From NCBI RefSeq assembly GCF_028640845.1, contig NC_080541.1:175636502-175700501 (forward strand): DNA of 64,000 nt, in the 5' to 3' direction. Shown here piece after piece: positions 2,659-61,900 of the stretch (position 1 is the first letter of the stretch; every line of letters begins with the position of its first letter). The position numbers were made by a program, and so were the translations under genes. The notes under the pieces are model-generated. The model was not told where the DNA came from. It did not search any database and saw only the letters and a list, made by a program, of their open reading frames with translations. The DNA comes from Ahaetulla prasina (Eukaryota; Chordata; Lepidosauria; Squamata; Colubridae).

Positions 2659-3674
2659 GATTGCTAGAGAGGGGACAAGGTATCAAAAGGCTGAGCTCAT
2701 TGGATGACAAGATTCCACCTAAATCACCCCGACCACGGCGCAACATCTGGCTATCACGCAGTCAATCAGACATTTTCTCTCGGAAACCTTCCAGCAAGAT
2801 AAATGTTCAGGATCCATATTATACACCGAGCAAAGGGGCAAGTCGAAAAGTCAACCCTTTCAATTCCAGGGAAGACTTGAAAGGGGGGAAAATAAAATTT
2901 TTTGATTTGCCTAGCAAATCCGTGATATCTCTTGTATTTGACCTGCACTCTCCAGAAGCAAGAGGATGTCAAAAGATGAGCCAGTCGCTGTTCAAGCACA
3001 CCTATGCCTATGATTGGCAAGACTCTTCTTTCCTTCCTGGGAGGAGAAGCAGATCACTTCCAGTTTCTCCTGAATTTGTTCATAAAGATTATAGTACATT
3101 TGGAGATTTCTCTTCAACAGTCAGTAGTTGTGATCCCACCCAGCTAGGGGCTGAGGTGCGCCAGAGGCTGCTGTGCAGTAGTAAGTATGGTGTATCTGAG
3201 ATCCCTCCTTTTCAGGTTAAACAACGTAGGCAGGACTCGCATCCTCCACTTCTGCAAGAGGAAGAAATGGATTGTTCTGATGAACTGGAGCCTCTAAACA
3301 AAAATGGGTATTCTGTAAAATGTTCAGCTGAAGAGGCAGAACTTGGAAAGCCTGAGGGACAAGTGCTGCAAGACACTTCTGGCCAAGTGGCTAATATCTT
3401 AGTGCACAATGTAGACTACCCAGAAAATCAATTCCCAGAAATGTTCATGAGCTGTACCACCTCTGAAGAAATGGAGGTGGAAGATGAAACTCAAAGGAAT
3501 ATGCCTTCCACTAAACTGGAATCTTCTAAACAGTTGCTCAGTATTAATCCTTCCTCACAGCAAGGCAGAGACTCCACTTTCCTTGAAGTGGTGGATAGCC
3601 ACACTTCAAATGTTTCTCTGCTGCCTTCAGACACACCAGCATCAATAAGTGGACAGCCGAAATGTGACATTTAA
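2659..3674 (+). CDS. TESK2: TESK2 last coding exon (testis-associated kinase 2, C-terminal region)
   Basis: This is the C-terminal, non-catalytic region of TESK2, a dual-specificity kinase related to the LIM kinases that phosphorylates cofilin and affects actin and cell spreading. The exon opens after a clear AG acceptor in phase 1 (two bases complete a Gly codon) and reads 337 residues to TAA. Phrases diagnostic for TESK2 are visible: KRLSSLDDKIP, NIWLSRSQSDIFSRKP, VNPF, GGKIKFFDLPSKSVISLVFDL and, near the end, TSEEMEVE. The middle is Ser/Pro/Glu-rich and poorly conserved, as in other TESK2 proteins. The kinase domain lies in upstream exons outside the window. The Ser-rich RSQSD segment is a plausible 14-3-3 or kinase site (inference). 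The gene is partial only because the window starts inside it. Confidence 0.95.
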
Positions 3675-35641: not shown

Positions 35642-36050
35642 AATGGGGGAATTCATTTTTTTTTATTACCGGTTATTTGGGCGTGGCTTGGTGGGCGTGG
35701 CAGGGAAAGGATACTGCAAAATCTCCATTCCAACCTCATTCCAGGGGAAGGATATTGCAAAATCTCCATTCCCACCCCACTCCAGGCGAAGGATACTGCA
35801 AAATCTCCATTCCCACCCCATTCCAGGCGAAGGATACTGCAAAATCTCCATTCCCACCCCACTCCAGGAAAAGGATATTGCAAAATCCCCATTCCCTCCC
35901 CACTCCTGGGGGAAGGATATTGCATAATCTCTATTCCCACCCCATTCTGGGACCAGCCAGAGGTGATATTTGCCAGTTCTCTGAACTACTCAAAATTTCT
36001 GCTACCAGTTCTCCAGGACCTGTCAGAACCTGCTGAATTTCACCCCTGGT
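35642..36050 (+). mobile_element. Short DNA-transposon-like repeat containing a minisatellite
   Basis: The right end reads atttcacccctgg. The interior contains 'gggcgtggcttggtgggcgtgg' split over lines and a tandem array at 35703-35945 of six units of about 42 bp (gatattgcaaaatctcc, ccattcccaccccactcc). Relatives: 38138-38455 (reverse), 41247-41645 and 55063-55330. Confidence 0.6.
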
Positions 36051-39870: not shown

Positions 39871-40130
39871 AAGAAAGATTACCACTATGAATATGATTGC
39901 AGAAAATATGACTTCAGTAACAGAGTGGTCAATGCCTGGAATGTACTACCTGACTGTGGTTTCTTCCCTAAATCCCCAGAACTTTAACCTTAGTTTGTCT
40001 ACTGTTGACCTCACTCCCTTCCTAAGAGATCTGCATAAGCGTATTCAAATTATGTTTATACTTTTACCTGATCTTATATATGCTTGACAAATAAATAAAT
40101 AAATATAAATAAAATATAAATAAATGAATA
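39870..40130 (+). mobile_element. LINE 3' fragment
   Basis: Translation in one frame reads DFSNRVVNAWNVLPD, a phrase typical of the ORF2 C-terminus of non-LTR elements. It ends in a TAAA/ATAA simple repeat. Confidence 0.55.
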
Positions 40131-41246
40131 ATGGGGTAGGTAGGAGAACGTAAATTAAGAAGTAAAAAAGTACAATTGTGTCCTAGTCAACATCTTGACT
40201 TGCTCCTGAAGGGCACAACTTTGATACCACATCACTTTCCATTAAACTATCTACAGAGATTCTCAATCATCCAGGTTATGGTTGCCCCAAAGATGCTTTT
40301 CAAAAGGCAACTGGGCTTTGTTAGTTTTTTGGCTTCATGGATGAGAAGCAAAACGTTTTCAAGAGGAAGAACACCCTCCCCCACAAAAAAAAGTCCAGTT
40401 GCTTTTTGTAAAGCACCTTTGGGATTTCCATCAGATGACCTCAATGGTTAAGAGTGTAACAGGTTTTGAATCCTCAGCAGGAAAACATAATAGGTTTTTT
40501 CATACGTATTTTCTGAGCGTTGCATCCTGCCCTCTCAAGATTATTTTCTTGAGTGCAGGAAGAGACAAAGAGCATGTTTGAAGGGATGAGGAATGTTAGA
40601 CCAATAGTGGGTATTGCAGACAGGTTGTAGAGCGTCAGGTAGGTGGGGAAAGGAAAACACTGTAAATGGTTACTGGGCATGTCAACATTGCTGTTTGTAA
40701 TAGAGCTACAGATAATGCTCCAGACATTATGTCTGGCTGATAGTAGTAGAAGACTTTTGGCAAAGAAAATTGTTTAATTTGTCCAAAGTAAGAGATTAAC
40801 TCTGGTTCAGCTAAAGAATTTTATCTTCCTACATTGTCTCTTTTCTAGGAACAGAGGCAATCTAAATAAATATTGGGCTTTTTATTTGCACTCTTTGATT
40901 GCGTTTCTGTTATTTGTGATGTATCCTATTTTTTTTTTCATGAAATCAGGACTTTTATTAAGCTAAACATGTGAGACCCAAGTCTATTGCTTAAAGCCCC
41001 AGAGTTATTTCCTAGAATTCTGAACATCGGTTTCACTCAATAGAAATGTAACTTCTAAACTTAACAGATAAAAGGGACAAAGGAAGGAGCTCAGTTTTGA
41101 TTAAAGGATACAAATGAAAATGATAAAATATTTGAGAAGTGCAGCACTGCTTTTTGGTAGACCAAAATTTTGCTTGTCAGCATGTTAATGGGAAATGAAT
41201 GAAAAAAGCTTCAGAGAAGGCTTTTTCTGATCTTATCAGCTACATC

Positions 41247-41645
41247 CACCGGTGAAATGTAAAATTTGTTACTACCGGTTCTGTGGGTATGGCTTGGTGG
41301 GGGGGATAATGAGACTAGGTGGGCATGGCCAACTTTTAAAAAAAAAATTTTTAAAGCATTTTTTCTACAACCTTTTCAGCTGAAGAGGTTTTAAAAGCCT
41401 CTGACGATCCCAGCTAAGCCGCATGATCATCAGAGGCTTTTTTTTTACTTTTAAAAGCATTTTTTCAGCCGAAGAAAAAATGCTTTTAAAAGTTAAAAAA
41501 AAACAACCTCTGATGATCACGTGGCTCAGCTAAGCGGGGGGTGGGGGGGAGGGATTTTTGCAAAAATCCCGGTTCTCCGAACCACCCATTGCCATTGCTA
41601 CCAGATTGGGCGATCCGGTCCGAACTGGGAGCATTTCACCCCTGG
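41247..41645 (+). mobile_element. Relative of the 35642 repeat with an internal hairpin
   Basis: It starts near 'ccggtgaaatg' and ends 'gcatttcacccctgg'. A foldback at about 41395-41535 pairs 'tacttttaaaagcatt' with 'aatgcttttaaaagtta', and the outer arms contain 'cctctgatgatca'-type repeats. Confidence 0.55.
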
Positions 41646-42272
41646 CTACATCTAACCACCATTTTCTTTCACTTCCACTCCTCAACCCATGTAATTTTCC
41701 TCCATATTTTTTCAAACCTCTTTTTTTTTTTGGTATGACCAATTGAGTTCATTTCTCACCTTTATATTCCCATTCTTTTAGTACTCCTCTCCCTCTCTCT
41801 TTCCCTTTCTCCCGTAAGTATAGAAGGTGTAGTAAATATAATGGTATAACTCGGATATAGTTACATGTCATCTTCTTTTGTTTTATCGCATATCTTTAAT
41901 TTCTTTTCCATACTATTTCTTATTTCTTTTCTGCACTGTGCCCAAAAGGAAACATCACGATGAGTTGATACAGATGTTCTAGGGATTTGCAAAACATTCA
42001 GTGCATCAATGGTTTCATGCACAGAGCAGCTGGCTTGAAGTAACTCTGAAGTGATAAAAGCTATAGTAGATGAGATAGAAGGCCTGTTGGAATCTTTCTC
42101 TCAAACACCCAGGTTGCAACCATCAATATAATACTAAAGTCACAACTCCACTGCATAATGGGATAGCATTGCTTATTTTCTGTGATGCAAAGTAGACAAT
42201 GGAAAGTGATTTTTCTGGAAAAGATCCTTAAATCTGCTGTCTTTTCTTATAGGCTAAGGGGAAGTAGTCGGG

Positions 42273-45200
42273 ATGGGCTTCTTGCCCCCGACCACAAAAG
42301 CCTTGCTGCTGGGACTGGTGATTGCTGCTACAGTAGCAGAAGGGGTTGTGGTTGAGAACCAAACCAGAATATGCCAACCGGCCCCACTTTGGAAGGTAAA
42401 TGGCATAGATCCAATGGTTGGAATGGAGGGCCAGGTGACAGTGGTGGTCCTTTTGAAGGCCAGCTGACAGTTCTGTCTCACGCAAGCAGCCAGGTGAGTT
42501 CTGCCCATAGAGCAGGTTGTTTGCTTCAAGAGTTATAAAAAGTGCCTAAACAGAAACCACATCTCGGGCAATAAGGTTTCTGCAGAAAATACTGAACTGA
42601 ACTCAGCATTAATTAAACTGTTGAAAAGACTGATTCTTCATCAATTCCTGTTCAGTGAAATATAAAATCATCCCATGGTTGTAATATGCAAGATGTGATA
42701 TACAAAGAAGAATGGCCATAGTTTAATTCATGAATTTCAATACTGCATAATGTGCATTCAGATATCTCTAAAAACTTTCAGCTGTAATAACAGGCCATTT
42801 AATGAGAAATAAAATGAAGTGGTGTCTCTTGCTCTAGAGATTTTATTCCAAATTATAAAAGCATCCTTCCTAATTTATCCCTCCTAATGCCTCAAGGGAT
42901 TAGGTGGCTCAGTGGCTAAAATGCTGAGCTTGTCGATCGAAAAGTCAGCAGTTCAGCAGTTCAAATTCCCAATACCATGTAATGGGGTGAGCTCCCGTTA
43001 CTTGTCCCAGCTTCTGTCAACCTAGCCATTCGAAAGCACATAAAAAATGCAAGTAGAAAAATAGGGACCATCTTTGGTGGGAAGATAACACCGTTCCCTG
43101 CGCTTTTGGCATTTAATCATGCTGACTACATGACAACGGAGATGCCTCCGGACAGCGCTGGCTTTTTGGCTTTAAAACGGAGATGAGCACTGCCCCCTAG
43201 AGTCAGGAACAACTAGCACATACGTTCAAGGAGAACCTTTACTTTTACCTTTACCTTTTAATGCCTCAAGATGTCTTGGATATCAACAGTCATAATTCGT
43301 AACCAACGATGAGATTTGGAGTCCAACACACCTGAATTTCCACTATTAGTGATGGTGGGGAGGCTGGGAATTACATCTGTGCATGTCATTTCCTAAATGT
43401 TATTTATTGCTCTTTTTACAACCAGCCTTGGCAGCTTGCGAGAGAAATTGTCTGGCGATGGCATGGCCAATGTCAGTTTCATGATTGTGAATGAAAAAAC
43501 CCCTTCCTCCAGGGCAATGTATTGGGAGCTCAAAAGACATGCTCCCAAAGGCATTCCAGTTTACCAGCAACAAATCCTGGAACCTGATGTCTGGCAAATT
43601 CTACAGGGCAACAAGGATGACTTTCTGATATATGACAGGTTGGTGGTACTTGATACAGGGAAGAAGCCATTCAAGTGGATATGCATATACAACATGATTA
43701 TAACACTCTTGGATTCTGTTGTGGCCTGCCAGCGGCCAGGAGAGCTGGCAGCAGATTTGGATAGTGAGGAGGTTGGGAAGGAAAATTGGCCAGTTCTGGA
43801 GTCCAGGGAAAGCTCTGATGAGGGCTCTGTGTCGGAGGCACAGCGGGGGCCAGCGGGGGATGCCAGTTATCAGCTACCTTCAGAGTCAGACATCAGTGAG
43901 GCAGATGAATAGCTGGAGTCTGTCCCCAGTGTGTGCATGCACAGAGCTGCCAGACGAAGGGAACAACTAAAGAACAAGGGTTGACTTGGGAGTAAGGCCA
44001 CAGGTGGACAATGAATGGCCCCTCCCAGAAGGAATAAAAGAGGAGCGAAAGGGGAGTGGAGTTTGCAGGAGACAATTAATTTGCCTAATTGGTTTGTGAC
44101 TCTCCGAGACTCTTTGCCAAGTTTTGAAGATATCGGCCTGGCAGCTCTCCAAGCCAGATAAGGTCTGTGACTGTAAATTCTCCCGTGAAAGACTTTGCTG
44201 AAGGTGAATGAGAGGAATTTGCTGTTTGTTTAATAAAAGGGGTTTTGTCAGGACCAGGATTCTGCTTCGTGCTTTTTGGGGAAGCCTAGGTCAGAACAGA
44301 TTCTGTCAAGCCCAGGAGATTCAGGCAGTTTAAATGAATATAAAGATTTATTGCAAGCTTAAGCTCTCAACAAGAGTCTGACCAACTAACAGACAAGGGA
44401 AATGCAGAGATAAAAAGGCATTCAAAAGGTGGGCTGGACTTAGATTTCTTGCAGGCATGCAGAGACTCAAGACATGATGTGTTTGGCCCCTCCCTTGGGC
44501 TCATCCTGGTCATCTTCTACATATTCTACAGTGGGGGCTGAAAGGAACTGACTAGTCTAAAACTTAAAAGCAAAACAACTGTCTATAGCAGGGGTCGGCA
44601 ACCTTAAACACTCAAAGAGCCACAAAGGTCCTAACTGGAAGCCCCCCATTCAGTTCTGGAGCTGATCAGAAGTCCGGTTCCCCCACCATAGAGACTCCAC
44701 TTAGCGTGGCATCCTTTTTCCTCTACCTGTCCTAACTGAAAGTCCTATCAATTGTGGAGCTGACTGGAAAACCTATCCCTTGCCATACAGTCTCTTCCTG
44801 GTGCGCCGTGATCCCCCCCAACCAGAAGGTCCTCTCAAAATTATGGTGCCGACCGGTGACAAGGAGCTGTAGCAGAGGATGAAAGAGCCACACATGCGGC
44901 TCCAGAGCCACGGGTTGCTGACCCCTGGTCTATAGAGCACATACAGTAGAGGGAAGAAAGCAAGAGGCATGTTCCTTGACTTTGGAGAGGGACCGTTTCT
45001 TCTCATTTTGTCATTGATAAAAATGTAAGCTCAGCCAAATTATATTCTGGTCATGCATGGATGGATCCTCAAGTGTCCCGAAACAAACTTCTTGCACTTT
45101 TTTTCCATGGCATCTGGACTCTGCAGGTGCAGGAAGCTCACTTTCCACATCCAGTTGCCATACAGTTTTCTGCACTTACCATATGTTGAGGCAGCTGTGC

Positions 45201-47373
45201 GCTACACATCCCGCAAAGACTATTGTGGCAATTGTTCCTGGTATTATCTGAACAGCAGCCAGGAGGTAAGAACTGAAGTCTTCTCTCTCTCTCTCTGCAG
45301 CTCTCCCATTTAAGCAGGACATTTTATACTTGCTCAGCTTTTCTTTTCTTTTTTTTATACTTAAGAATTCTCCAAGTTTTCTGATTGCACATTTTATTTA
45401 TTTATTTATTTATTTATTTTATTTGATTTTTATACCGCCCTTCTCCCGAAGGACTCAGGGCGGTGTACAGGCAACAATAAAATACAAACACCCCAATATA
45501 CAATTTAAAATACGAGTTAAAAAACTTATTATAATTAGCCTAGAACTTTAAAATTTATAAAACCAAACCCCATTTAAAATTAGTAGAAAATTTAAAATCG
45601 ATAAAATTTATAATTTAAATTTAAATTTAAATTTAAATTTAAGTCAGCGGCCTAATAATAAAAGGTATGTCTTCAGTTCGCGGAAAGTCCGAAGGTCAGG
45701 TATTTGGCGAAGCCTGGGGAAGCTCGTTCCAAAGTGTGGGAGCCCCCACAGAGAAGGCCCTTCCTCTGGGGGCCGCCAGCCGACATTGTTTGGCGGACGG
45801 CACCCTGAGAAGTCCCTCTCTGTGAGAGCGTACGGGTCGGTGGGAGGCATATGGTAACAGCAGGCGATCCCGTAAGTACCCAGGCCCTAAGCCATGGAGC
45901 GCTTTAAAGGTCGTAACAAAGTGCACTCGGAAGGCCACAGGTAGCCAGTGCAGTCTGCGCAGGAGCGGTGTTACGTGGGAGCTACGCGAAGCTCCCTCTA
46001 TCACCCGCGCAGCTGCATTCTGGACTAACTGAAGCCTCCGAGTGCACTCATTTTATACAAGCCTCATTTTATACAATGAGGATGAAAGAAATACAGTAAA
46101 AGGGAAGGCATGTTTCATATTTTGCAGTATACGAGAACAAGCAAAACTGGAAAATTTCAACTGTATCTTTAAGTGTAATATGAGGAACGGAGCTGAAGGA
46201 TCTGAAAGAATAATTTTAGAGCCAGCGACATAGAAAGGGCCCAGATTTAATTATTTACATCCAGGTCTCTTTGTGTTACATATTGGCTGAATCCACACAT
46301 TGTGTTAAGCTATACTTTGGTTAACCATGACTGCTGAAAAAAAAAAAAAGCAGTTGACTTGATTTGCACATCATGCTATATCAATACCCACTGTATTATA
46401 AGTAGGAGTAGGAGTAGGAGTTATAAATCAGGTTGAAGAGCATGTAATGATGGTCAAGGCTAAAGGACATGCCAACCTGCAGGTTATCTCTCTGCACACC
46501 TGGTCTTTATTTGTCTATCTAACATAGGAAGTAAACATAACAAAACAAAAATGCTTTGGGAAGAGAGAAATCTATTAAGTAGTAGATATTTGTATTAAAA
46601 TACAAATGATCTTGCACTCATTGTCCTTCCTTCCTGTGACATGTATTGTGGAACTTTACTTGTATCTTCTGCCATAATGACCGAGTTCAATTGTGCCAAA
46701 TCAAAATGTGGTTTCATTGTATCTTAGCTTGTTAGGCAAATCCAGCCAACTAGGTCATAGTCTACGAAGCAGAGATAAAACAGTTGAGCAAATTGTTTAA
46801 ATCCATTATGTGTAAAATCCATAGTCTTATCACCTAGGTATAAGATTCTTACTTTTTAAAACCACTTTCTTAAAATGAGAATTTTAAATTTAAATTTAAA
46901 ATGAGAATTGCCTTGAGCGAGTCACCAGAATAATAATTTATATTTGCTAGCTAGATTACTGATAACGTATTCTGCAAAACTAATTCACTTTGGCAGTTAG
47001 TATATTTGTTCATACTAAATGTAAACATACAGCAAGTAGATCCCTTCATTATAATATACACTATGTCATTTTCTTTCACCCTTAAACTGTGCCATCTTGC
47101 TTCATCTTAAGTGCATCTCATAATATATCAGAACTTATTGCTATTTCACAGGTGAATAACACAGCAAGTACTCAGATGACAACTGAGGCTCCAGGAGACA
47201 AAGTGAAGAGCCTGGAAGTTTTGAAAAGTCAGCCTGAAAAGAAAAATCAAGAAGCGCCTAACTTCAAACACCTAGTCCAGAGCCATTCCCATCACGGGGG
47301 AATTAACACAGCCCAACCATCCCTCCATTCTCAAAACCATTCAGTTAACCACCACAAAAGTGAATCTCACTAA
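42273..47373 (+). CDS. SELENOP2: SELENOP2-like selenoprotein (selenoprotein P2/Pb), four coding exons, in-frame TGA = Sec
   Basis: A secreted thioredoxin-fold selenoprotein of the selenoprotein P family. Exons 42273-42493, 43426-43638, 45127-45265, 47152-47373 join in phase (2, 2, 0) to 795 nt, 264 aa plus stop. A signal peptide is visible (LLLGLVIAATVAEG). Residues 55-68 read GQVTVVVLLKAS-U-QFC: the TGA at 42465-42467 occupies the Sec of the UxxC redox motif, in the position found in selenoprotein P. Then follow LREKL, VSFMIVNEK, IPVYQQQ, DVWQILQG, KDDFLIYDR, CRKLTFHIQLPYSFLHLPYVEAA and CGNC. The tail (about 195-264) is Lys/Gln/His-rich, with seven His pairs or singles near the end, and has no further Sec. 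That is the architecture of the short, single-Sec P2 form, which placental mammals lack. Several N-glycosylation sequons (NQT, NVS, NCS, NSS) are present. A SECIS hairpin lies about 640 nt past the stop. The 20-nt leader follows an AG acceptor, so a non-coding first exon is expected upstream. Confidence 0.93.
42465..42467 (+). other. In-frame TGA selenocysteine codon (Sec65)
   Basis: The TGA is followed by CAG TTC TGT, giving UQFC. The frame stays open past it to the exon-1 donor, and the downstream exons continue the selenoprotein P homology. It is therefore read as Sec and not as a stop. Confidence 0.92.
42897..43258 (+). mobile_element. tRNA-derived SINE with 12-bp target duplication
   Basis: Box A 'tggctcagtggcta' and box B 'agttcaaattcc' are followed by a body ending 'gccccctagagtcagg' and a CTTTTAC repeat tail. 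The direct repeat taatgcctcaag flanks it (42885-42896 and 43259-43270). It lies in intron 1 of SELENOP2. Confidence 0.85.
43717..44298 (+). mobile_element. Solo LTR of a retroelement with 5-bp target duplication
   Basis: The 582-bp unit starts TGTTGTGG and ends GAACA (TG...CA) and is flanked by direct gattc at 43712-43716 and 44299-44303. A TATA-like aataaaag near 44033 and an AATAAA near 44232 fit an LTR. No internal genes or second LTR are present, so it is a solo copy left by recombination. Whether it is ERV or Gypsy type cannot be told. It lies in intron 2 of SELENOP2. Confidence 0.82.
44589..44927 (+). mobile_element. hAT-type short element with 8-bp target duplication
   Basis: The ends caggggtcggcaacc and gttgctgacccctg are inverted, and direct gtctatag flanks it (44581-44588 and 44928-44935). 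It lies in intron 2 of SELENOP2. Confidence 0.85.
45390..46050 (-). mobile_element. L2 LINE 3' fragment, antisense
   Basis: The minus strand encodes [59 protein letters not shown], the C-terminus of an L2-type ORF2. It ends in the 'ccgcccttctcccgaagg' complement tail and a TTTA run. It lies in intron 3 of SELENOP2. Confidence 0.85.
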
Positions 47374-48271
47374 ATGGCTACAGTATGGAAATAAGCTCTC
47401 AACTATTAGGAACTCCAAAACATTACACTAAAAAAAAATTAAGCGAGCAATATAAAAAATAGCTAAGGAGTAAATTTACACATCTCAGGAAGGAATGGTT
47501 CCATGTTTGCTCACAGTAAGAGTATACCAAATTATTTCCAGAGGGACAAACATCATATTAATCTATAATAGGTTTTGTTTCATTGTGGTGTAACCAATAA
47601 TTAACCTGAACGCAAGTGATTTAATGGAAGGGCCGAGCCCATAAGTTGAACAGTTAGACGTTTCAGACATTGTCTCTCAGAAGGCTATTTTGTGGAAGCG
47701 CAGATTGGTATTTCTCACTGCCACACCTATCTTCTAGGACATGTTTCTCAACCTCAGCAGCTTTAAGATATGTGGACTTGAGCTTCCAGAATTTCCAAGA
47801 TAGCACTGGCTGCAATTGGAAGTCCTTGTGATGTTACCTAGTTTGGTAATGAAACATCCGTAAAAAAACCTCAAAGCGCAGAGAGTACCAAGGACACCAC
47901 AGTTCAATCCTGAGCTACAAATATTCTCTTCTATCGATTATCTAATGTCTACGTCTGTATGCACTTAGTCTTCTGCTGGGAAATCAGTTTTGATTCCCCA
48001 CCTTTACATTTCCTACTTTTCTGCACTCAATGAAGTATGCAGTGTAACCTAAATATTGCAGTCACTGCAGCCTGAAACTGTTCAGAAAAGTAGTTAGCTA
48101 AAATGGAAAGATGGGATGAGGATCAGAATTAGGATTTGAGGAAGGGTGACAGACTAAGTGAGGGCAATGGAAATAAATTTGGCAAATTAACATCCATGGA
48201 CCTGGATGGCTAATTTGAGGATTGTGATTTATGTGGTGTTCCTAGATTCTTGCCAGAATCAAGAGAATAAA
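47374..48271 (+). other. SELENOP2 3' UTR
   Basis: This runs from the TAA to a candidate poly(A) signal AATAAA at 48266-48271. It contains the SECIS hairpin and, at about 47740-47815, a hAT-like remnant (gtttctcaacctcagcagc). The length is fairly typical for a selenoprotein P 3' UTR. Confidence 0.6.
48015..48091 (+). promoter_or_regulatory. SECIS element of SELENOP2
   Basis: Helix I pairs ACTTTTCTG (48015-48023) perfectly with CAGAAAAGT (48083-48091). After a small internal loop comes the quartet ATGA (48030-48033) opposite TGA (48073-48075). Twelve nt past ATGA stands the apical AA (48046-48047). Helix II pairs TGCAGTG (48038-48044) with CACTGCA (48063-48069). Spacing and invariant bases fit the SECIS consensus that recruits SBP2 for Sec insertion. 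It is on the same strand as the gene, 642 nt past the stop. Confidence 0.87.
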
Positions 48272-48963
48272 ATGTAATTAACTGGGTTTACAGAAATGTT
48301 ACTTGCTTCTATATACATTGCACCGTACGTAGTCAGGAGGTTTGGAGTGAAGCTCAATTAAGAGACAGAGCATTATGAGATGAACTGATGAAGAAAGTTT
48401 ATTCTTGACATATTGGCAAAAGTAATGAAAATGGATACATCATGTACTGAGTAAAAAATAATACTGCATTCTGGTGGAAATAAACTATCCAAAATTGCAT
48501 TTGAAATCTTCATTTTCAATATCTTAATGGATCAGAAGCATTACAAATTAAAGCAAAGTCTTTTATTTAAAACACATGCACAAATAAATATGACCAAAAC
48601 AGTTTTTGCTTCGGGTACCAAATTGAAAAATTATTCCAGTCATGAGTTCCTATCGAAATCTTCTGATATTCTTCCAACTTTAGATCTTTATGTCTTGTTT
48701 GCCTTTCCAAAAAATTGCACAAAGACCCTGAATTATCTGAGTGTGGTTAACATGATTAGAAAATATTTGCAAAAGCTTAACCTTTAACTGACTTCTTTTC
48801 TCGATAACAGCAGTTCACTCAGAAGAAATTGCTGTTTCATTTTTAAAAAAACTATATCTGTCCCCTGGCTCCCTCAATAAGGTGACATGCATGTTTTTCC
48901 CATCTGGTTTATTTTCACAACAATCCTATGAGTTTGGCTATACTGACTGATTGCCTCAAGATT

Positions 48964-49220
48964 ACCCTGTTTCCCCTAAAATAAGACATCCCCTGATAAT
49001 AAGCCCAATTGGGCTTTTGAGCGCATATGCTAAAATAACCCCCCTAAAAAATAAGCCCTCCCCAAAATATTTAAACGCATGCGCAGCCAGTCCCCGCCAT
49101 TTCCTCTGCTTTCCACCAGGCACCCCAAAATAATAAGACTTCCCCGAAAATAAGGCCAAGTGCTTATTTCGGAGTTCAAAAAAATATAAGACAGGGTCTT
49201 ATTTTTGGGGAAACATAGTA
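48964..49220 (+). mobile_element. Short inverted-terminal-repeat element
   Basis: The ends ccctgtttcccctaaaataag and cttatttttggggaaacat are inverted. The interior repeats 'ataagcc' and 'ataagac'. No coding capacity. The family is not named here. Confidence 0.7.
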
Positions 49221-49547
49221 GTTGGTTTCATGACTGAATGGAATTTTGAACCAGAGTATTTCAGCTATTATCCAGCACTATCAACTGCATAGTCAAAGCA
49301 GCCAGGACCCCAGCTGCAAATGCATGACTGAAGCCCCACAGTTTTTAAAATTGTGCCAGAGATGCATGTTAAAACAAAAAAGCTGGAGCTTCAATAGTCT
49401 CAGCCACCTTCTTGCTGTTTTTGACTCCCCCCACCAATGATGTTACTGTCTGATAATGTTAAGTTAGTAACATAATTGTTAAGTGAATCTGGCTTTCCCA
49501 TTGTGAAAGTTATCAGTGCCTTATAGACTTTCAGGGCAGGGAAATAC

Positions 49548-49941
49548 CGGTAATCCTCAATTTACAACAGTTCATTTAGTGACCGTTCAAAGTTACACAG
49601 AGATAAGTGACTTATAACCGTTTTACACAGTTGCGACCTTTGCAGCATCCCCATGCATTTTGATCATGCAATCAAAATTCAGACGCTTAGCAACTGGTTC
49701 ATATTTATGACCGTTGCTGTGTCCCAAGGTCATGCAATCCCCTTTTGCAACCTTCTGACAAGCAAAGTCGATGGGGAAGCCAGATTCACTTAACAGTTAG
49801 GTTACTAACTTAACAACTGCAGTGATTCGTTTAACAAATGTGGCAGGAAAAGTGGTAAATTGGGGCAAAACTCACTTAACAAATTTCTCAGCCAAATACA
49901 TTTTGGGCCCAATTGTGATCGTAAGTCGAGGACTATCTGTA
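49548..49941 (+). mobile_element. TA-flanked repeat family, copy in duplicated block
   Basis: Starts 'ggtaatcctcaatttacaac' and ends 'gtaagtcgaggactatctg'. The 1.04-kb duplicated block begins inside this element at 49589. Confidence 0.65.
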
Positions 49942-50640
49942 CTGCCCAATGAGTCTGTTTAACATAATACAATATAATACATAATACAAGTAACATCTAG
50001 CTAGGCCTAGAGTGGCTAGAAGAAAATAACATCCTAGTGGAGGAAAAGAGAAGATTTCAACAGGCAGGGTTTCAGGGAGTTTGCTTTGTGTTCAGTTAAG
50101 GAATAATACTCTCCCATTTCGTTAAAAAATAGATAGGTAGACCTCAATTTACGACGAGTGGCTTAGCTTAATTTATCATGAACCTCCCCAGGAATATATA
50201 TGATCCAGTATCGAAGTTACAAGAGCCAGGATGCTCCCCCCTCCATGGTCACATGACCACATTTTGGGCACTCATCAATCAGCCCACATTTATGACTGTT
50301 TGCACCTTCCTACGATCATATAATTTCATTTTATGATATTTTTTCTGAAAACCAGGATTTACTTCTGATTTTTGGTAAAACCGGGCCATCGCAAATCATG
50401 GGTTTGTTTAGCAACTGCTTCAAAATCGATCACACAAAACTTTATAACTGTCACAACTTGAAACCATAATGGGCAGGATCCATTATGGTCCTAAATCAAG
50501 AACTATTTGTTCTCAGTTACCTATGTCAGCTCTTTTGGTTTTGTTGGTAGATCTCAGGCAATCTTAACTGGAAAAAAAAAACCAACAGAGCATCTGCAAT
50601 AAATAGATAGTTACTGACTCTATTTTATATATATATATAT
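49589..50640 (+). repeat. 1.04-kb direct repeat, copy 1
   Basis: It matches 51501-52536 almost base for base in the same orientation, with scattered substitutions and a net difference of about 16 nt where copy 1 has an extra aatac-rich segment. It contains two TA-flanked-type repeats and ends in a TA run. Confidence 0.92.
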
Positions 50641-50645
50641 ATATA

Positions 50646-50980
50646 GGTCTTTGGTTGTTCGGGTTTTCTCCCGTGTAAAATTGGAAGTGTCTTGGCGACG
50701 TTTCGACGAAGTCTCATTCGTCATCTTCAGGCTTCAGCTTCGTGCTTCTGGGAGCAATGTGTGATCGCAGCTGTTTCTTCCTTTTAACTGCTAGTGGGGG
50801 TTTGAACTGATTGGGTGGGAGCTTGGCTGTGCTCTGATTGGATGGGGTTTTTTCTGTGCTCTGATTGGCTGGGGTGTGTCCTGTGTTGGTGGGGGCTTGG
50901 TTGTGCTCAGTCTAGTCTGTGCTGCAGGATTTGAGCTGGTGAGCTGCATAGCTGTTGTTTGGCTTTGTGGTGTGCTCCAA
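50646..50980 (+). mobile_element. Penelope-like element fragment
   Basis: It contains 'gacgtttcgacgaagtc' and 'tcattcgtcatcttcagg', phrases of Penelope-like terminal repeats, then internal short repeats (gctctgattgg three times or near). The reverse-transcriptase part is absent. It joins directly to an L2 fragment. Confidence 0.5.
50697..50730 (-). ncRNA. Hammerhead-ribozyme-like core
   Basis: Minus strand: CTGAAGA (50730-50724, the CUGANGA box), T, then stem II GACGAA (50722-50717) with TTCGTC (50710-50705) around loop TGAGAC, then GAAA (50704-50701). Box order and stem II are as in hammerheads carried by Penelope-like elements. Stem III would be very short (GTC/GAC) and the cleavage-site side does not pair well, so activity is doubtful. 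Confidence 0.45.
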
Positions 50981-50984
50981 GGTA

Positions 50985-51500
50985 TTGGTTACCACCTTTA
51001 AAGCGCTCCATGGCTTAGGACCGGGCTATCTACGGGACCGTCTACTGCCGGCCTCTATCTCCCATTGTCCGGTGCGTTCCCACAGAGACGATCTCCTCAG
51101 GGTGCCGTCAGCCAAACAGTGTCGACTGGCGGCCCCCAGGGGGAGGGCCTTCTCTGTGGGGGCTCCGACCCAGTGGAACGAACTTCCCCTCAGGCTTCGA
51201 CAACTACCTGACCTTGGGACCTTTCGCCGCGAACTTAAAACCTATTTATTTCGGATGGCTGGACTAGCTTGATTTTTATCTGTAATTTTGATTGAATGTG
51301 ATGGGTTTTTAAATTTTTGTAATTTTATGGGGGTGTTTATTATTTTAATTTTTGGGCTAATTTAAATCAGTTTTTTAAGGGTTGTTTTAATTATTGTGTA
51401 TGTCTATTGTGTATTTTATCTGCCTGTTCACCGCTCTGAGTCCTTCGGGAGAAGGGCGGTATACAAATTAAAATATTATTATTATTATTATTATTATTAT
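50985..51500 (+). mobile_element. L2 LINE 3' fragment
   Basis: The frame reads [53 protein letters not shown], then 'ccgctctgagtccttcggg' and an (ATT)n tail at about 51468-51500. It separates the two copies of the 1.04-kb repeat. Confidence 0.85.
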
Positions 51501-52536
51501 AAAGTTACACAGAGATAAGTGACTTATAACCGTTTTACACAGTTGCGACCTTTGCAGCATCCCCATGCATTCTGATCATGCGATCAAAATTCAGACGCTT
51601 AGCAACTGGTTCATATTTATGACCGTTGCTGTGTCCCAAGGTCATGCAATCCCCTTTTGCAACCTTCTGACAAGCAAAGTCGATGGGGAAGCTAGATTCA
51701 CTTAACAGTTAGGTTACTAACATAACAACTGCAGTGATTCATTTAACAAATGTGGCAGGAAAAGTGGTAAATTGGGGCAAAACTCACTTAACAAATTTCT
51801 CAGCCAAATACATTTTGGGCCCAATTGTGATTGTAAGTCGAGGACTATCTGTATTGCCCAATGAGTCTGTTTAACATAATACAATAAGTAACATCTAGCT
51901 AGGCCTAGAGTGGCTAGAAGAAAATAACATCCTAGTGGAGGAAAAGAGAAGATTTCAACAGGCAGGGTTTCAGGGAGTTTGCTTTGTGTTCAGTTAAGGA
52001 ATAATATTCTCCCATTTCGTTAAAAAATAGATAGGTAAACCTCAACTTATGACGAGTGGCTTAGCTTAATTTATCATGAACCTCCCCAGGAATATATATG
52101 ATCCAGTATCGAAGTCACAATAGCCAGGATGCTCCCCCCTTCATGGTCACATGACCACATTTTGGGCACTCATCAATCAGCCCACATTTATGACTGTTTG
52201 CGCCTTCCTACGATCATATAATTTCATTTTATGATATTTTTTCTGAAAACCAGGATTTACTTCTGATTTTTGGTAAAACCGGGCCATCGCAAACCATGGG
52301 TTTATTTAGCAACTGCTTCAAAATCGATCACACAAAACTTTATAACTGTCACAACTTGAAACCATAATGGGCAGGATCCATTATGGTCCTAAATCAAAGA
52401 CTATTTGTTCTCAGTTACCTATGTCAGCTCTTTTGGTTTTGTTGGTAGATCTCAGACAATCTTAACTGGAAAAAAAAACCCAACAGGGCATTTGCAATAA
52501 ATAGATAGTTACTGACTCTATTTTATATATATATAT
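51501..52536 (+). repeat. 1.04-kb direct repeat, copy 2
   Basis: It starts exactly where the (ATT)n tail of the L2 fragment ends and matches 49589-50640. It ends in a shorter TA run. Confidence 0.92.
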
Positions 52537-52544
52537 ACTTTTTA

Positions 52545-52833
52545 AATATATCAGTCTGAGAGTGAGATGTACCATCACTGACTCAGCATTTCTCAAATGT
52601 AATGCCAGCTAGCAAAGGAGTTAAACAAGGATGCATTTTGCGCCCAGTATTTTTTAAGTACTACATTAACATTGTGGTAAATGCCACTAGCAAGAAAGAG
52701 TTTTACACCCTCAAAACTGACTAATAGATCTACCGCCTTACCCAGACAGTGCTGAGCTACTGACACAGAGGCCAGTAGATATCATAAGAGCCATGGAACC
52801 ATTGGTCCATTTCTGTAGAGAACACTCTTTACA

Positions 52834-52917
<84 letters not shown>

Positions 52918-54020
52918 TACTATTACTATTACTATTATTATTATTTATTATATTTGTATACCGCCCATCTCCCGAAGGACTCAGGGCGGTTCACAGTCAA
53001 TAAAACAACAGAAAACATATAATACATATAAAACAGCAAAAAGAATAGATAATTAAATTCAGTTGATGCCTTAAAACTTTTAAATACAAATTTAAAACCC
53101 ATTTAAACCCCTGATTTAAAAACCCCAATTTAAAACTGCGTTCAAGCTAGTCCTGCTCTTCGAAACAGCAACGTCTTCAGCTCGCGGCGGAAGAACCTGA
53201 GATCGGGGAGTTGACGAAGCGCCAGAGGGAGCTCGTTCCAGAGGGTAGGGGCCCCCACAGAGAAGGCCCTCCCCCTGGAGGTCGCCAGCCGACATTGTTT
53301 AGCTGACGGTATCCGGAGGAGGCCCTCTCTGTGAGAGCGCACTGGTCGGTGAGAGGCTAATGGTGGCATATTAACTATGTGAAAGCAAAAATCATGCATT
53401 TTGCAAGGCCTTCAAAAAATTTCACTGGACCTTCAAAGGACACATAATGGAACACTTCCCTCTCCTTGCACCTGAGAGTTGTGCTGTATTATTCAAGGAA
53501 ACAACATACTCACATTTCTCGGGTTTCTTTGAATGCTCAGAGGAGCTCAATAGTAGTCCACTCTCTCTTTTTGCTCTAGAAGAACCCCAAATATTCTAGC
53601 TGCTTTGAAGCCAAGATCTTTTCACAGCATCCCCATATAGTGCAGTTAAATCCAGGTCTCAACTATGAGGAAACCGGAGAATGTTCAAGCTGGCTTCCTA
53701 AGAAAATTATTTCAGCTAGGGCTCCTAAAAGACTGCTGTACATTCAGAGGCAGAGTTTATAATAAGGGGATGGCTATGCAGGCTTGGATATTGGCTAAAG
53801 GCCAAGAATGTCATTAAGAGCACAATTGGGGCATAACAAATTTAATTTTAAATCAGCATTTCATCTGGCTCAAATTATAAATACCAAACTTGGAGAGCGG
53901 GGGAGTTTTTCTACCACTGCAGTTGAGTATCTTACCATCAGCAATGTCAGAGGGAAAAGAGTTTGTCCCTACAGAGATGGGAGTCCTGAATTACCCCCTC
54001 TGCATATGACATCTTTTTAA
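52545..54020 (+). mobile_element. Decayed non-LTR reverse-transcriptase element, split by an L2 insertion
   Basis: Left part: GVKQGCILRPVFF (an RT motif, about 52618-52660) and LLTQRPVDIIRAMEPLVHFCRE. Right part from 53370: NYVKAKIMHFARPSKNF and HISRVSLNAQRSS in shifted frames, then RAQLGHNKFNF and YRDGSPELPPLH. The two parts continue each other around 52838-53362. Frameshifts and stops show that it is dead. The family is not named here. Confidence 0.6.
52838..53362 (-). mobile_element. L2 LINE 3' fragment with long (ATT)n tail
   Basis: The minus strand encodes [45 protein letters not shown] and ends through the L2 tail into about 100 bp of TTA/ATT repeat (52838-52945). The Ile-rich open frame here is only the translated microsatellite. 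Confidence 0.85.
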
Positions 54021-54230
54021 ATATTTGTAAATCACTATTTTATCTTCCCTTAGTCTTTTCTTTTGCAAGTTACCAGTAAATGGACAAAACATTTGTGTTA
54101 AAAAAATCATTTAAGGCCTTTGTTCCTTTACAAGGTTTATAAAATATTCCAACAGAAGAAAAATCTGAACAGTGTTTAATCCCCTATCTTCATTAATTCT
54201 ACTTGGAACTGTTCAAAGTGTAGTTTAACT

Positions 54231-54972
54231 CAGGGGTCACCAATCTTTTGGACCTCAGGGACTACTAAATTCATAATTTTAAATTCCATGGACCACTAAT
54301 ATGATCTGCCTAATGACCAAGTGGGTGGTGGCTAGGTGGTCATGTGACTGGGTGGGCGTGACCAGCTCAATGTCACCCACGTTGAGGGGCACCTCACCAG
54401 CCTCTACTCGCCTCCTCATCCAGGCTCCTTAAGGTCCCAGCAGTTGTTGGAGCTAAGCAGCCACCACCAGAAAGAGTTGGCAAAACAGGTAGCTCAGTTC
54501 AAATTGGATCTGACCGAGGAGGCTCAGCAGAAGCACCTAACTGAGGACTATGAGCACAGGCTTTCCGAGCAGAGGGAAGACCTGCGGGAGTGCAAGGCCA
54601 GGTACCAGCACCTGGAGGCTCATCGGGCTGAGATGGTCAGCCAGTTCCAGGCCATGATGCAGTCCCACTGGACCAGCATTTTATCACCAGTTGTGCTTCC
54701 CTCCAGTCTTCACCCAAAGCCCCGTACCAGGAGGCTGAAGCAGACCCCAAGTTGGAATTTCTGCCCCCTTCCAACCCACACAAAAAGACACTGAAGGGGG
54801 AGACTTCTCTGCAGCAAAACAAACGTTCATTGCACATATACAGCCCAGGGGCCATAGTTTGAGGACCCCTGATTTAGTGCAATATTAAAAAATGCAAATA
54901 ATTTTTCTGTGGACCACCAAAATTTTCTCATGGACCACCAGTGGTCCAGGGACCACCAGTTGGTGACTGCTG
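54231..54972 (+). mobile_element. hAT-type element carrying a coiled-coil coding fragment
   Basis: The element starts caggggtcaccaatc, ends ttggtgactgctg, and is flanked by direct gtttaact (54223-54230 and 54973-54980). Inside, 54444-54794 is open in sense for 116 codons and rich in Glu, Gln, His, Leu and Lys (LELSSHHQKELAKQV, EDYEHRLSEQREDLR, RAEMVSQFQAMMQSHW). The first 75 or so residues look like a coiled coil; the last part loses that character. GC is higher than the surroundings. An inner hAT-like end (gtttgaggacccctg, near 54860) suggests nesting. The host-gene origin of the fragment is not recognised. Confidence 0.7.
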
Positions 54973-55062
54973 GTTTAACTCACATAGTTTCCAGATCCAA
55001 GATCAACGAGCAGCCAAGAAGTGTCTGTGGCCTTAGAATCTTGCCTCCTTCAGCAGCATAGA

Positions 55063-55330
55063 GCAGGGGTGAAATTCTACTGGATCGCACCAGATTGAGC
55101 GATCTGGTAGCGACCGTGACCAGTAGTTCGGCGATCCGTTAACAATGGTGGAGCAAAGCTCCGCCCACCTGCCTGGCTGTCATTATTTCTTGGTTTTAAC
55201 CAGAAAGTAAAGTGTTTTTTACCTTCTGCGCATGCACAGAAGGTTTTGTACATGCACAAAAGGTGTCTGTGCGCGTGTGTGGCACGTGCACTTTCAAGCC
55301 GGTAAGGAAGGTAAGTAGATTTCACCCCGA
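55063..55330 (+). mobile_element. Relative of the 35642 repeat
   Basis: The ends caggggtgaaattc and gatttcaccccg are inverted. The interior has 'gcgatctggtagcg' and 'gcgcatgcacagaagg'. Confidence 0.6.
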
Positions 55331-55655
55331 TGCAGAGTCTTGTAGCAGGAAATTCAATATGTATGATTTTGTCTTAGCCACAGGGGTTGTAAACCATGGT
55401 TCATATACTAACATGATGTGCTTACATTCACAACTTAGGAAAGAAATTCACCAGAGAGTAGTAGTCCGTCACTGCTCTGAAGAACAAATATGAGATGCTA
55501 AGTCTGTCCTAGAGGAATTTCTACTTTTATCAGCAGAATATCTTAGCCTGAGAACTGGTATCTCTAACAATTGAGATAGGATTGGCTTCTTTCTTGGAGC
55601 AACCATTTTCCTAATCTCTAACAGTTCAGCAATGAGGGACCCTCTTGCCTTGGGA

Positions 55656-55789
55656 CATAGCTTAGCCCAGGGGTCTCCAACCTTGGCAACTTTAAGTCTG
55701 GCAGACTTCAACTCCCAGAATTCCCCAGCCAGTTTAAAGTCTGCCAGGCTTAAAGTTGCCAAGGTTGGAGACCCCTGGGCTAAGCTATG
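55656..55789. mobile_element. Foldback MITE with inverted flanks
   Basis: The arms 55656-55707 and 55738-55789 are reverse complements over 52 bp with one mismatch. The hAT-like ends (caggggtctccaacc / ggttggagacccctg) lie inside the arms; 12 bp outside each end (catagcttagcc / ggctaagctatg) are also inverted, so no direct target duplication is seen. Confidence 0.8.
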
Positions 55790-55799
55790 CACATGTTAA

Positions 55800-57240
55800 A
55801 GAGTTCTGTACCTGTCCTTTGGATTCTGCTGGACTAAGTAGGTAAGTTGCTAAGTTTTTCAAAGCACTTTGCTGCCTGAGACGAAGCATAAAATTGTTCC
55901 AGTGCTACCTCTCCCCCCCTCCACTCAGACTAACAAGTAGCATCTTTTGTGACAAAGACCCTTAGTGATAGCCAAGCAGACCAGCTAAGCAAAAATACTT
56001 TGTTCCTACTGTGACACGAACTCAGGAGGAGTGGCTCAAGGGAGGTAACTGCTGCTTTTGTTCTGCTTAGGGCAGTCAGATCCACTGTGGATTTTTGTAG
56101 TCCATTGCATTTGGAAAGAAACAGATTATAGGCTGATCCAGTACAGGCACTTCTGTTGCCTTGATAGTTATCAAGTCATGTGTATCTGTATACAGCTTTA
56201 AAAAAAAAATCATCTGATATGAATAACAGGCTTCAAACATCACACTAAATCATTCTGTATTAATCATGGTTTTTAATGAGGCTCAAGTGGCTGGGTTCCC
56301 ACATTGCCAAAAGGCATGGTTTACAGTAGCTGAGTCACAAACAGCTGGGTTTATCCAGTGTTAGAACTATACAAACCATATTATGGCCTAGACTGGTGAA
56401 TCTGAGTTTTTTCTAGGTTTATTTGCCTGTTTTTTTCACTGCTCTGGAGTTGAACTAAGTTGATATGAGACTTAGTTATTTAAATATAATTCTCAACTGT
56501 ATTTATGAAACTAGGGGAAACTTTAAGAGACAGAAAACAATGAATTCTCCCTTTGCATATAGTTTATTTTCCTCTGTTCTTCCCTATGTATTGTTCTGAT
56601 AAGCTCCAAAAATGGAAATGAAATTTGATTTTATGGTCTGAAATCATATCACTCTAAAATGCAAATACATGCCAATGCTGAATTTATTTTGACTATAGAA
56701 CACGGAAATGTTGATTGCTTTAGACTGAAATTGCAATGCTGCACTTCACATGGTCAGTTATAACCTCAAATAAAAAATAACTAATCTAACATCCTCGACA
56801 CCCAAAATAAATCCAGCCTTATTAAGTTTGCTTTGCTCCAATTCTATTATATCAAAATCTCGCTATACAGTGCAAGATTAGCCTTTATCTTTATTTTGAA
56901 GTAAAAGATAGCCTTTAATATCATTTTTTAAACTATTTGCAGGTTCTTAAAAATGATTATGGTATTATTCTACATACTTGTTCAAAGTCCTTTTGAAGAC
57001 AGGATAATCCAGCATCTTTTTTGTATTCCTAGTCTTGAAAAGATACTGAAATTATGGTACTAGGATATTATGATTATTATTTTAAAGAATTCCAATACAC
57101 AATGCCTATTCACTAGATTATTATTGCGCAAAATACATGGTTGGGAAAACTGCTAGTGATAGAATAGTTAATATAACACTGATTAAAGGAGGCCTTTAGG
57201 CCCAATGTCATACTGAGAACACACTGGATACAAATCAGAT
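55800..57240. other. Intergenic, no gene seen
   Basis: AT-rich, unique-looking sequence between SELENOP2 and PRDX1. No exon, RNA gene or clear element could be supported. Confidence 0.5.
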
Positions 57241-58957: not shown

Positions 58958-61900
58958 TTATTTCTGTTTGGAGAAATACTCTTTACTCTGCTTGACATCT
59001 GGCTTGATAGTGTCACTTCCAGGTTGCCAACCAGCTGGGCACACTAAAGAAAATACATTTTAAGTTATTGGGTCATATAAAAAAACCTGAGTTGCATGTT
59101 CATAACTAGATCAATACCCCCAACCTTGCAGAAAGGAAGAGTTGCAGTTTACAGTATCAGAATTGTATTGATTGGAAAAACCCTGTTGCACAGGGTGATT
59201 TGGGCCAATAATTATTCTGACCATAAACTGCAACTTTCATATTCTCAATTAGAACACATTTTTAGCAATACTAGATTGTATATCTTTAGTATCATAACTA
59301 ACCATTATTCAGTATGATAGAATTTAGACTTAATATTACTGAATAAGTCACAAGCACCTGAGTTCATACACTACACTTTTCATAAACTGGAACAGGTGCA
59401 ATACCAGATCCAGCTAGGAATCCTGTCTCATCACATCTGCTGAAAATCAGCAACATGGGCTTCTAATATTTTGAGATGGGAAAGATCACATTCTAAGTAT
59501 TAATATTTAAAAACACTCAGAACCTCCTCCAAGATAGAAGAATAGAAAAGTTGAGCCTTCTCCAAGCGACATGGAAAACAAGCAGTAAGCTGATATTCTG
59601 ATAATAAATTTATTTCATTTATTGTGCAAATTACATGTGGCATTCTGTGCTACTAAACTTCGTTTGCACTGATTTTAGAGAATGTAAACTCCAACATATT
59701 TTTACAATGGTGAATAAACTTATCCTCAACCTTTAAAGATTTTGTTTTTCATTGGAAGTCACTCCATCAAAGTTAGCCTAAAACTTGTACCACAAATGAA
59801 TAATTTTTTTGTAGTGTATCTATGCACCCAACCTTATCACCTGACATCTTAATCATAAAAATACAATCCAGGTGGCAGCTGCAATCTATTTTTAATGTAA
59901 GGGAAAAGTGCTAAAATTTCTCAAGTATTCATATCTATGTAATTTACATAATTCTGAAAATATTTTTTGCTATGCAGACAAAAAGTTAGTACTATATTTT
60001 TTTTCTTCTGTTCCATCAACTCAGTGTCTCAATTTCTAACCTGACCCTAATCACTACACCAAACTGGCTCTCAGTGCATGTTCTGGCTAACCAATTCATT
60101 TTATTTCCTGCTTTACCAATATAAGTTGGCAAATATAAAGTTTTGTATAAAATTTCCGTAAATTTTGTATGCTGCTAGAGCTAGAGCCCACTGGGAGTTA
60201 TGAGGCCAATACATTTTTAAAAATTATAACTAATCTCACCTTCTCCATTTTTGTCTGTAAACTGAAAAGCCTGAACTAGCCTGAGTGTCTCATCAACTGA
60301 ACGACCAACAGGCAGATCATTGATTGTGATCTGGCGCAAGATCCCCTTTTCATCGATGATAAAGAGGCCCCTAAAATAGGAAAAAGGTAATTTAAAAAGT
60401 TAGAGGTTGTGCAAACACCAATTCAACTTTCTCTGAATTTATTTTTAGAATGCAATTCAAAGCAAATATCAAATATAAGGCAGTCATTCCTGCATGTGCT
60501 ATGTGAAACAATAAGCTTCTTGCAGAATTCTTTAGCTTGAATAGTATTAGAAAAGAAACAATAGGTGAGATAATGAACCTTGCCTAATATTATTCATCAA
60601 ACTTGTATAGCTGCCCAGAACTAGAAGGCAGAGAACCAATTCAAATCATAATACAAACACTATTTAAAATAACAAACATTGAACATTGTTTGTTCAATGA
60701 ACCATCTAAAACATTCATCCATCATCCACCCTGTGCCAGAACTTTTTACATCCTGGTCCCTATGCACCTGGAGCGAAAGTCAGGTTTTCACAGCTTTTCT
60801 AAAAGCCAAAAGAATCAGCACCATCTATATCTTTATTTATTTTATTTATTCGAATTTTTATACCGCCCTATCTCCCGAAGGACTCAGGGCGGTTCACAGC
60901 CAGATAAAAACATGCAAATAATACAAGTAAAAACAACAATTAAAAAACTTATTAATTAGGCCGAATTAAAAATATCACTAGAATAAAATAATATAAAACC
61001 CCATTAAAAACTAAATTTAAAAACTAAAACCCTAGGCTAGCCCTGCGCAAATAAATAGATGTGTCTTAAGCTCGCGGCGGAAGGTTTGAAGGTCAGGAAG
61101 TTGACGAAGCCCTGGGGGAAGCTCGTTCCAGAGGGTGGGAGCCCCCACAGAGAAAGCCCTTCCTCTGGGTGTCGCCAGTCGGCAGTGCCTGGCGGACGGC
61201 ACCCTAAGGAGTTCCTCTCTGTGAGAGCATACGGGTCGGTGGGAGGCGATCGGTGGCAGTAGGCGGTCCCGTAAATAACCCGGCCCTATGCCATGGAGCG
61301 CTTGGGGTTAGGGGGCTGGGGTGAGGCTATTCTATAAAGGCAGGCACGATGACAGAGAAAGCATGTTTCTAAGACCCCCGTCAGACAACATTCTTTCACT
61401 AGGGGGGACTCATCCATGCCCATCCTGCATTGCAGGAACTATCCACCACCTGGAATTGCACCTGCAAATCTACTGAGAGCAGCACAGGTTACACACCACA
61501 ATTACCAAGGTGTATTCAAATGCACTCACTGCACACAGACACTCCGCTACTGTATTCTGAACTAAATGTTTTCAAATGCTTTTCATGGGCACCAATTTAC
61601 AGCATACTGGAATAGTCACTTGGGAGGTGACTAAGGCAGTAATGTCACTACAACTCAACCAGCCATGAAAAATATAAGAACATGTTTTATTAGATTTTTG
61701 CTCTGCCTTTACTTTTTATCAGTTCAAGGCGGTGTACATATTTAATGCTCTTGCCCCCATTTTTCACATAGACCCAAGAGAATGACTGGCCTCAAGTCAC
61801 CTAGCTGGCTTTCATGCCTAAGGAAGAACTACAACTCATTCTTTCAGTTTTGATTTTTTTTTTTCCTGCTGAAACAAACAGAACTCCAGGCAAAGTTTCC

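Follow-up and report, generated by a model that had tools for sequence, protein, structure and literature searches.

The window analysed here is a 64,000-nucleotide (nt) stretch of contig NC_080541.1 from the snake Ahaetulla prasina. Its forward strand contains a gene with four coding exons (Table 1), which was confirmed at the sequence level to be an intact SELENOP2 (selenoprotein P2, also called SelPb) gene. The joined exons are 795 nt long, in phase, and encode a protein of 264 residues. All three introns have a GT donor and an AG acceptor. The frame contains a single internal TGA and ends at a TAA stop codon. A first-pass annotation of this DNA had described a complete gene with four in-phase exons at 42273-47373, and these limits proved exact.

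A likely splice acceptor (AG at 42251-42252), absent from the first-pass annotation, is seen by eye just 5' of the ATG. It fits the presence of a separate non-coding exon 1. In the published plan of SelP genes, exon 1 contains only untranslated region (UTR), exons 2 to 4 encode the conserved N-terminal region, with the thioredoxin (Trx) fold in exons 2 and 3 and a Cys-rich part in exon 4, and exon 5 encodes the rest and the 3' UTR (PMC2397514). The four coding exons fit exons 2 to 5 of this plan. An ancestral intron adjoining UGA 1 has been published (PMC5133445), and the intron that soon follows the TGA codon in the snake gene fits it. The last SELENOP2 intron also contains a copy of an open reading frame (ORF) from a repeat family described below.

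Family assignment and the C-terminal tail

The match of the protein to Pfam SelP_N (PF04592) scores 238.1 bits (E 1.1e-70), the cut-off being 23.2. This was the sole match in the Pfam search of the protein, and PF04593 (SelP_C) was not matched. A homologue search of 5.8 billion proteins yielded 1,055 candidates and 190 matches at E<=1e-3, the best 120 of which were listed. Subsets of these 120, picked for taxon spread and for coverage of the stretch concerned, were used for the tree (33 homologues plus the window protein), the redox-site alignment (13 rows), the tail alignment (10 rows), and the fold model (63 homologues).

Among the 120 of 190 matches listed, "Selenoprotein Pb, partial" from Ophiophagus hannah ranks first (E 6.2e-106), and proteins from further squamates, turtles, sharks, birds, and frogs come next. 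Orthologues are spread over the jawed vertebrates. The homology shown by this match and by SelP_N excludes a chance resemblance. Over residues 75-191, encoded by exons 2 and 3, Ophiophagus is 96.6% identical (117 aligned residues), Pseudonaja 96.4% (112), Crotalus horridus 94.9% (117), Podarcis muralis 84.6% (117), and Alligator 75.0% (116).

In the tree of 34 rows, SelPb and SELENOP1 are split at 100/100, and the window protein is on the SelPb side. It is placed among squamates at 100/98 and joined with two elapids at 99/92, the elapids being nearer than Crotalus. The labels of the homologues in the tree (9 SELENOP1 and 24 SelPb) are our own and mostly follow database names; some rows, P0079 and P0107 among them, carry just the name "Selenoprotein P N-terminal domain-containing protein". 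These results agree with the earlier assignment to SELENOP2 of a squamate. SELENOP1 was considered as an alternative identity and rejected, based on the TAA right after the tail, the match to PF04592 only, and the 100/100 split.

The N-terminus is hydrophobic and by eye resembles a signal peptide, as had been proposed in the first-pass annotation. The protein contains six N-glycosylation sequons. The first-pass annotation also described a His-rich tail. The tail is real and aligns with relatives, but its His content is modest. The last exon encodes 73 residues, 9 of them His, and the tail is thus better called His-containing than strongly His-rich. Seven squamate-like relatives (P0007, P0013, P0015, P0027, P0033, P0044, and P0116) have tails that align with it, end at approximately the same place, and include no selenocysteine (Sec)-rich domain. 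In an eighth squamate-like relative, P0026 from Crotalus adamanteus, the tail is incomplete in the alignment.

The in-frame TGA and the candidate SECIS element

The internal TGA corresponds to codon 65. Sequence similarity continues 3' of it, with QFCLKQA in Ophiophagus and Pelodiscus and QFCLTQAA in Callorhinchus, and the frog protein has Cys at the aligned position. Both features make the TGA look like a Sec codon. The earlier description of one Sec codon, with UQFC at the redox site of the family and no second Sec, holds.

If the TGA were instead a genuine stop, the locus would be a recently inactivated gene. This is very improbable. In favour of inactivation, the TGA is in frame and the locus is known here from genomic DNA, but the TGA is the sole internal stop in 264 codons and falls at the Sec position of the family. 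The near-identity of exons 2 and 3 to Ophiophagus, the intact splice sites, and the selenocysteine insertion sequence (SECIS)-like element downstream also speak against inactivation, and the pseudogene was rejected for this locus.

The database models of this gene are damaged at the same codon. The redox motif is intact in none of the 10 aligned models from squamates, turtles, and crocodilians. In eight of them the TGA codon falls in a gap, which in Pelodiscus comprises that one residue only. The other two (Varanus and Gopherus evgoodei) have an unrelated residue within a replaced stretch. In an eleventh model, P0026, the first coding exon is read in another frame, like the ORF 42356-42538 of the window. 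Judging from the Leu-Thr of P0026 at this spot, its in-frame codon would have the form TNA, so that TGA is allowed and Cys is excluded. Trp is found at the Sec position in 11 of 30 motif-matched homologue rows, three of which (P0028, P0029, and P0043) are SelPb-like by sequence. It is read as TGA translated as Trp. The expectation that ordinary gene prediction would spoil the gene at its TGA was thus borne out, and the differing ways in which the 10 reptile models break look like stop avoidance by gene finders.

The Ophiophagus model raises another explanation, in which the TGA is spliced out and the product is free of Sec. The TGA is enclosed, in frame, by a 36-base GT...AG stretch, and the 12 residues encoded by this stretch are precisely those missing from the Ophiophagus entry. 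However, vertebrate introns are far longer than 36 bases. Such a skip would delete the strand preceding the redox motif together with Sec, and the variety of breaks in the 10 models resembles stop avoidance. Splicing of the TGA is considered even less probable than inactivation and was rejected for this locus. The GT...AG stretch is read as an annotation artefact, produced by a gene finder dodging the stop, and not as a real intron.

Downstream of the stop codon, reading of the sequence and motif-plus-pairing scans revealed the SECIS-like element, which is absent from the first-pass annotation. Its helix I is formed by 11 pairs (48013-48023 with 48083-48093) and its helix II by 7 Watson-Crick pairs. 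The core consists of ATGA at 48030, followed 12 nt on by AA at 48046, and TGA at 48073. It is located 1,257 nt downstream of the TGA codon in the messenger RNA (mRNA). The predicted fold has an energy of -26.3 kcal/mol (z -3.76), and none of 200 shuffled sequences folded as well. In a loose scan of both strands, the element was the top of 191 candidates (score 16.5), the next being on the reverse strand (16.0). With strict thresholds, chosen after the candidate was known, it was the sole match in the window, and 150 simulated 64-kilobase (kb) strands gave none. With relaxed thresholds, chosen likewise, it was again the sole match in the window, and the simulations gave 27, which corresponds to 0.0026 per 927-nt UTR.

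Vertebrate SECIS elements are characterized by a GA/GA core and AA in the apical loop (PMC3316567), and the features of the snake element match these. The SECIS of SelPb has been published as type 2. From its sequence and predicted pairing, the element at 48013-48093 is a strong candidate for the single SECIS in the 3' UTR.

Predicted fold and function

The fold was modelled on a Xenopus laevis relative. The Xenopus SelPb model has a mean predicted local distance difference test (pLDDT) score of 75.7 and a predicted template modelling (pTM) score of 0.62. The block-mean pLDDT of residues 31-150 is 93-98, and that of the tail is low. A CxxC motif (60-63) lies between a strand (50-56) and a helix (61-79). 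The top PDB matches of the model were a putative disulfide isomerase (2ls5, E 2.3e-07), DsbE/ResA-type proteins, and GPX4. The template modelling (TM) score against ResA 2h1b was 0.75 by target length. The resemblance to DsbE/ResA-type reductases and GPX4 is in the fold of this model and in the placement of the redox motif, but the identity is 10-20% in the 50 structure matches listed, and these proteins have no SelP tail. DsbE/ResA-type matches are bacterial proteins, and GPX4 is a peroxidase without UxxC. A PDB sequence search with the joined snake protein gave one weak match, plant adenylylsulfate reductase (E 0.22), which is uninformative. A Trx fold has been proposed for SelP (PMC2397514). 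On the model of the Xenopus relative, a Trx fold with CxxC, corresponding to UxxC, at the start of a helix is predicted.

It is very likely that the intact SELENOP2 gene encodes a secreted Trx-like oxidoreductase or peroxidase, with its TGA read as Sec via a SECIS element. A non-coding first exon would probably be spliced to the four coding exons in the mRNA. The TGA at 42465 would be read as Sec under the direction of the single SECIS in the 3' UTR. The product would be secreted and would carry a Trx-like domain in which UxxC opens the helix that follows the first main strand. Its most likely function would be that of a Sec-dependent peroxidase or thiol oxidoreductase in plasma or at the cell surface, and its short tail with His residues may serve to bind heparin, membranes, or metal.

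Some points weigh against this interpretation. In the loose scan, scores equal to or higher than that of the SECIS-like element were seen in 6 of 500 simulated 3' UTRs, and the strict and relaxed scans had the benefit of hindsight in their thresholds. Rfam found no SECIS family in 40000-56000 (E<=5) or 47374-48400 (E<=10), with models whose sensitivity was not gauged on a known SECIS. The element was judged on the DNA of this one genome. The gene itself is known here from genomic DNA alone, and the literature examined yielded no enzyme assay for any SelPb.

SELENOP1 and the snake protein share the SelP_N domain, the N-terminal exon plan, and the UxxC motif. Unlike SELENOP1, also called SelPa, the snake gene has no Sec-rich C-terminal domain, and it has one SECIS candidate, not two. 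With one Sec and without that domain, bulk carriage of selenium as by SELENOP1 is not possible. SELENOP2 might still act chiefly as a carrier, bringing a single Sec per molecule to the tissues. Among the tissues compared in turkey, only liver had detectable SELENOP2 mRNA, at a level called high, and the authors class SELENOP1 and SELENOP2 together as transport selenoproteins (PMC5708738), a grouping that also counts against the redox interpretation. The turkey expression makes secretion from liver plausible in snakes. In contrast, each molecule would carry one Sec, located in a Trx-type redox site, and in frog SelPb Sec is replaced by Cys, which keeps the redox chemistry and carries no selenium (PMC2397514). 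A carrier role is therefore unlikely, although less so than the two explanations rejected above. The single Sec at a Trx-type site and the lack of a Sec-rich domain make a secreted redox role likelier than selenium transport. Such a role, suggested by the sequence and the Xenopus model and also inferred in the first-pass annotation, is reasonable but unproven.

The snake gene shares its sequence family, redox motif, and single Sec codon with SelPb/Sepp1b of birds, reptiles, fishes, and non-placental mammals, and likewise has a short tail containing His, four coding exons that fit the SelP plan, and one SECIS candidate. It differs from them only at the level expected of orthologous sequences. 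SelPb has been tabulated in fish, birds, platypus, and marsupials (PMC3316567). The first-pass annotation took one Sec to be general in SELENOP2. This applies to the snake gene and, in one account, to every SelPb except that of frog, which has Cys (PMC2397514), but salmonid SelPb has 1 to 4 Sec (PMC6301783). Its statement that placental mammals lack the gene is the published view, to which armadillo was named as an exception in 2008 (PMC2397514).

The locus is a well-supported, ordinary member of a known family, and its novelty is below the first estimate, as reptile SelPb is already in print and squamate entries exist in databases. The analysis adds the SECIS candidate and a description of the ways in which reptile models are damaged at the UGA. 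The full gene model, with exons, Sec codon, and SECIS candidate, is for a gene whose models are broken in all 10 reptile entries aligned. It will aid the correction of annotations and the comparison of SELENOP2 with SELENOP1, and it implies no new principle. A more tentative idea, for which the odds are somewhat less than even, is that squamates keep an active Sec-dependent SELENOP2, a conserved secreted selenoenzyme of reptiles for redox chemistry and not for transport, largely unstudied because its models are widely broken at the UGA. The Cys in frog would suggest that chemistry, and not cargo, was kept.

Neighbouring genes and repeats

Table 1. Features of the SELENOP2 locus and of neighbouring genes, in window coordinates.
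Feature	Position	Strand	Basis or remark
5'-UTR part of first coding exon	42253-42272	+	Inferred, read by eye after likely acceptor
SELENOP2 coding exon 1	42273-42493	+	ATG at 42273; signal-peptide-like start, first Trx-domain strand, Sec codon
GT...AG stretch spanning TGA, 36 bases	42435-42470	+	Encodes 12 residues without counterpart in Ophiophagus model
In-frame TGA, putative Sec codon 65, motif KASUQFC (KAS-U-QFC)	42465-42467	+	Frame and alignment
SELENOP2 coding exon 2	43426-43638	+	Remainder of Trx-like domain
SELENOP2 coding exon 3	45127-45265	+	End of Trx-like domain and CGNC region
SELENOP2 coding exon 4	47152-47373	+	His-containing tail; TAA stop ending at 47373
SECIS-like element	48013-48093	+	Motif-plus-pairing scans and folding; 3' of stop codon
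Poly(A) signals AATAAA	48172 and 48266-48271	+	Predicted; both 3' of SECIS-like element
HPD-like uninterrupted ORF, 418 residues	31356-32609	-	Nearest identified gene 5' of SELENOP2
Adenine DNA glycosylase (MUTYH) exons	19228-19629 and 23222-23560	+	Profile and structure-sequence matches
CAF1-family ribonuclease exons	9579-10427 and 11724-12029	-	Pfam; 9579-10427 just under cut-off

HPD-like, MUTYH, and CAF1-family genes are located on the 5' side of SELENOP2. The best match of the HPD-like ORF among solved structures was 4-hydroxyphenylpyruvate dioxygenase (1sqi, 1.1e-34), and the match to the NCBIfam family 4HPPD was below its cut-off. This ORF is presumably HPDL. The CAF1-family exon 11724-12029 showed no match in the PDB search; the gene at 9579-12029 is assumed to be TOE1. 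The ORF 2646-3671 (+, 342 residues) belongs to no Pfam or NCBIfam family and, judging from the neighbourhood, is perhaps the last exon of TESK2. HPDL, MUTYH, and TOE1 are neighbours on human chromosome 1. According to PMC6301783, the SelPb neighbourhood is conserved from fish to chicken, and its counterpart on human chromosome 1 is without SelPb.

The ORF 54348-54791 (+), which contains a coiled-coil-like stretch (QLLELSSHHQKELAKQVAQFK...), matched no Pfam or NCBIfam family. The ORFs 45699-46052 and 24921-25475 had no Pfam match. A peptide similar to RSHRE.LLR.PSA... is common to four ORFs: 45699-46052, 53145-53411, and 61035-61307 (all three -), and 50952-51269 (+). These four probably represent one repeat family of transposon origin. 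A palindromic stretch at 41388-41538, ~0.7 kb 5' of SELENOP2, resembled many Rfam hairpin (microRNA) models below threshold and looks like a hairpin-forming repeat. Tandem arrays are present at 35701-35944 (5.9 copies of a 41-base unit) and at 52834-52951 (a TAT run of 39 copies).

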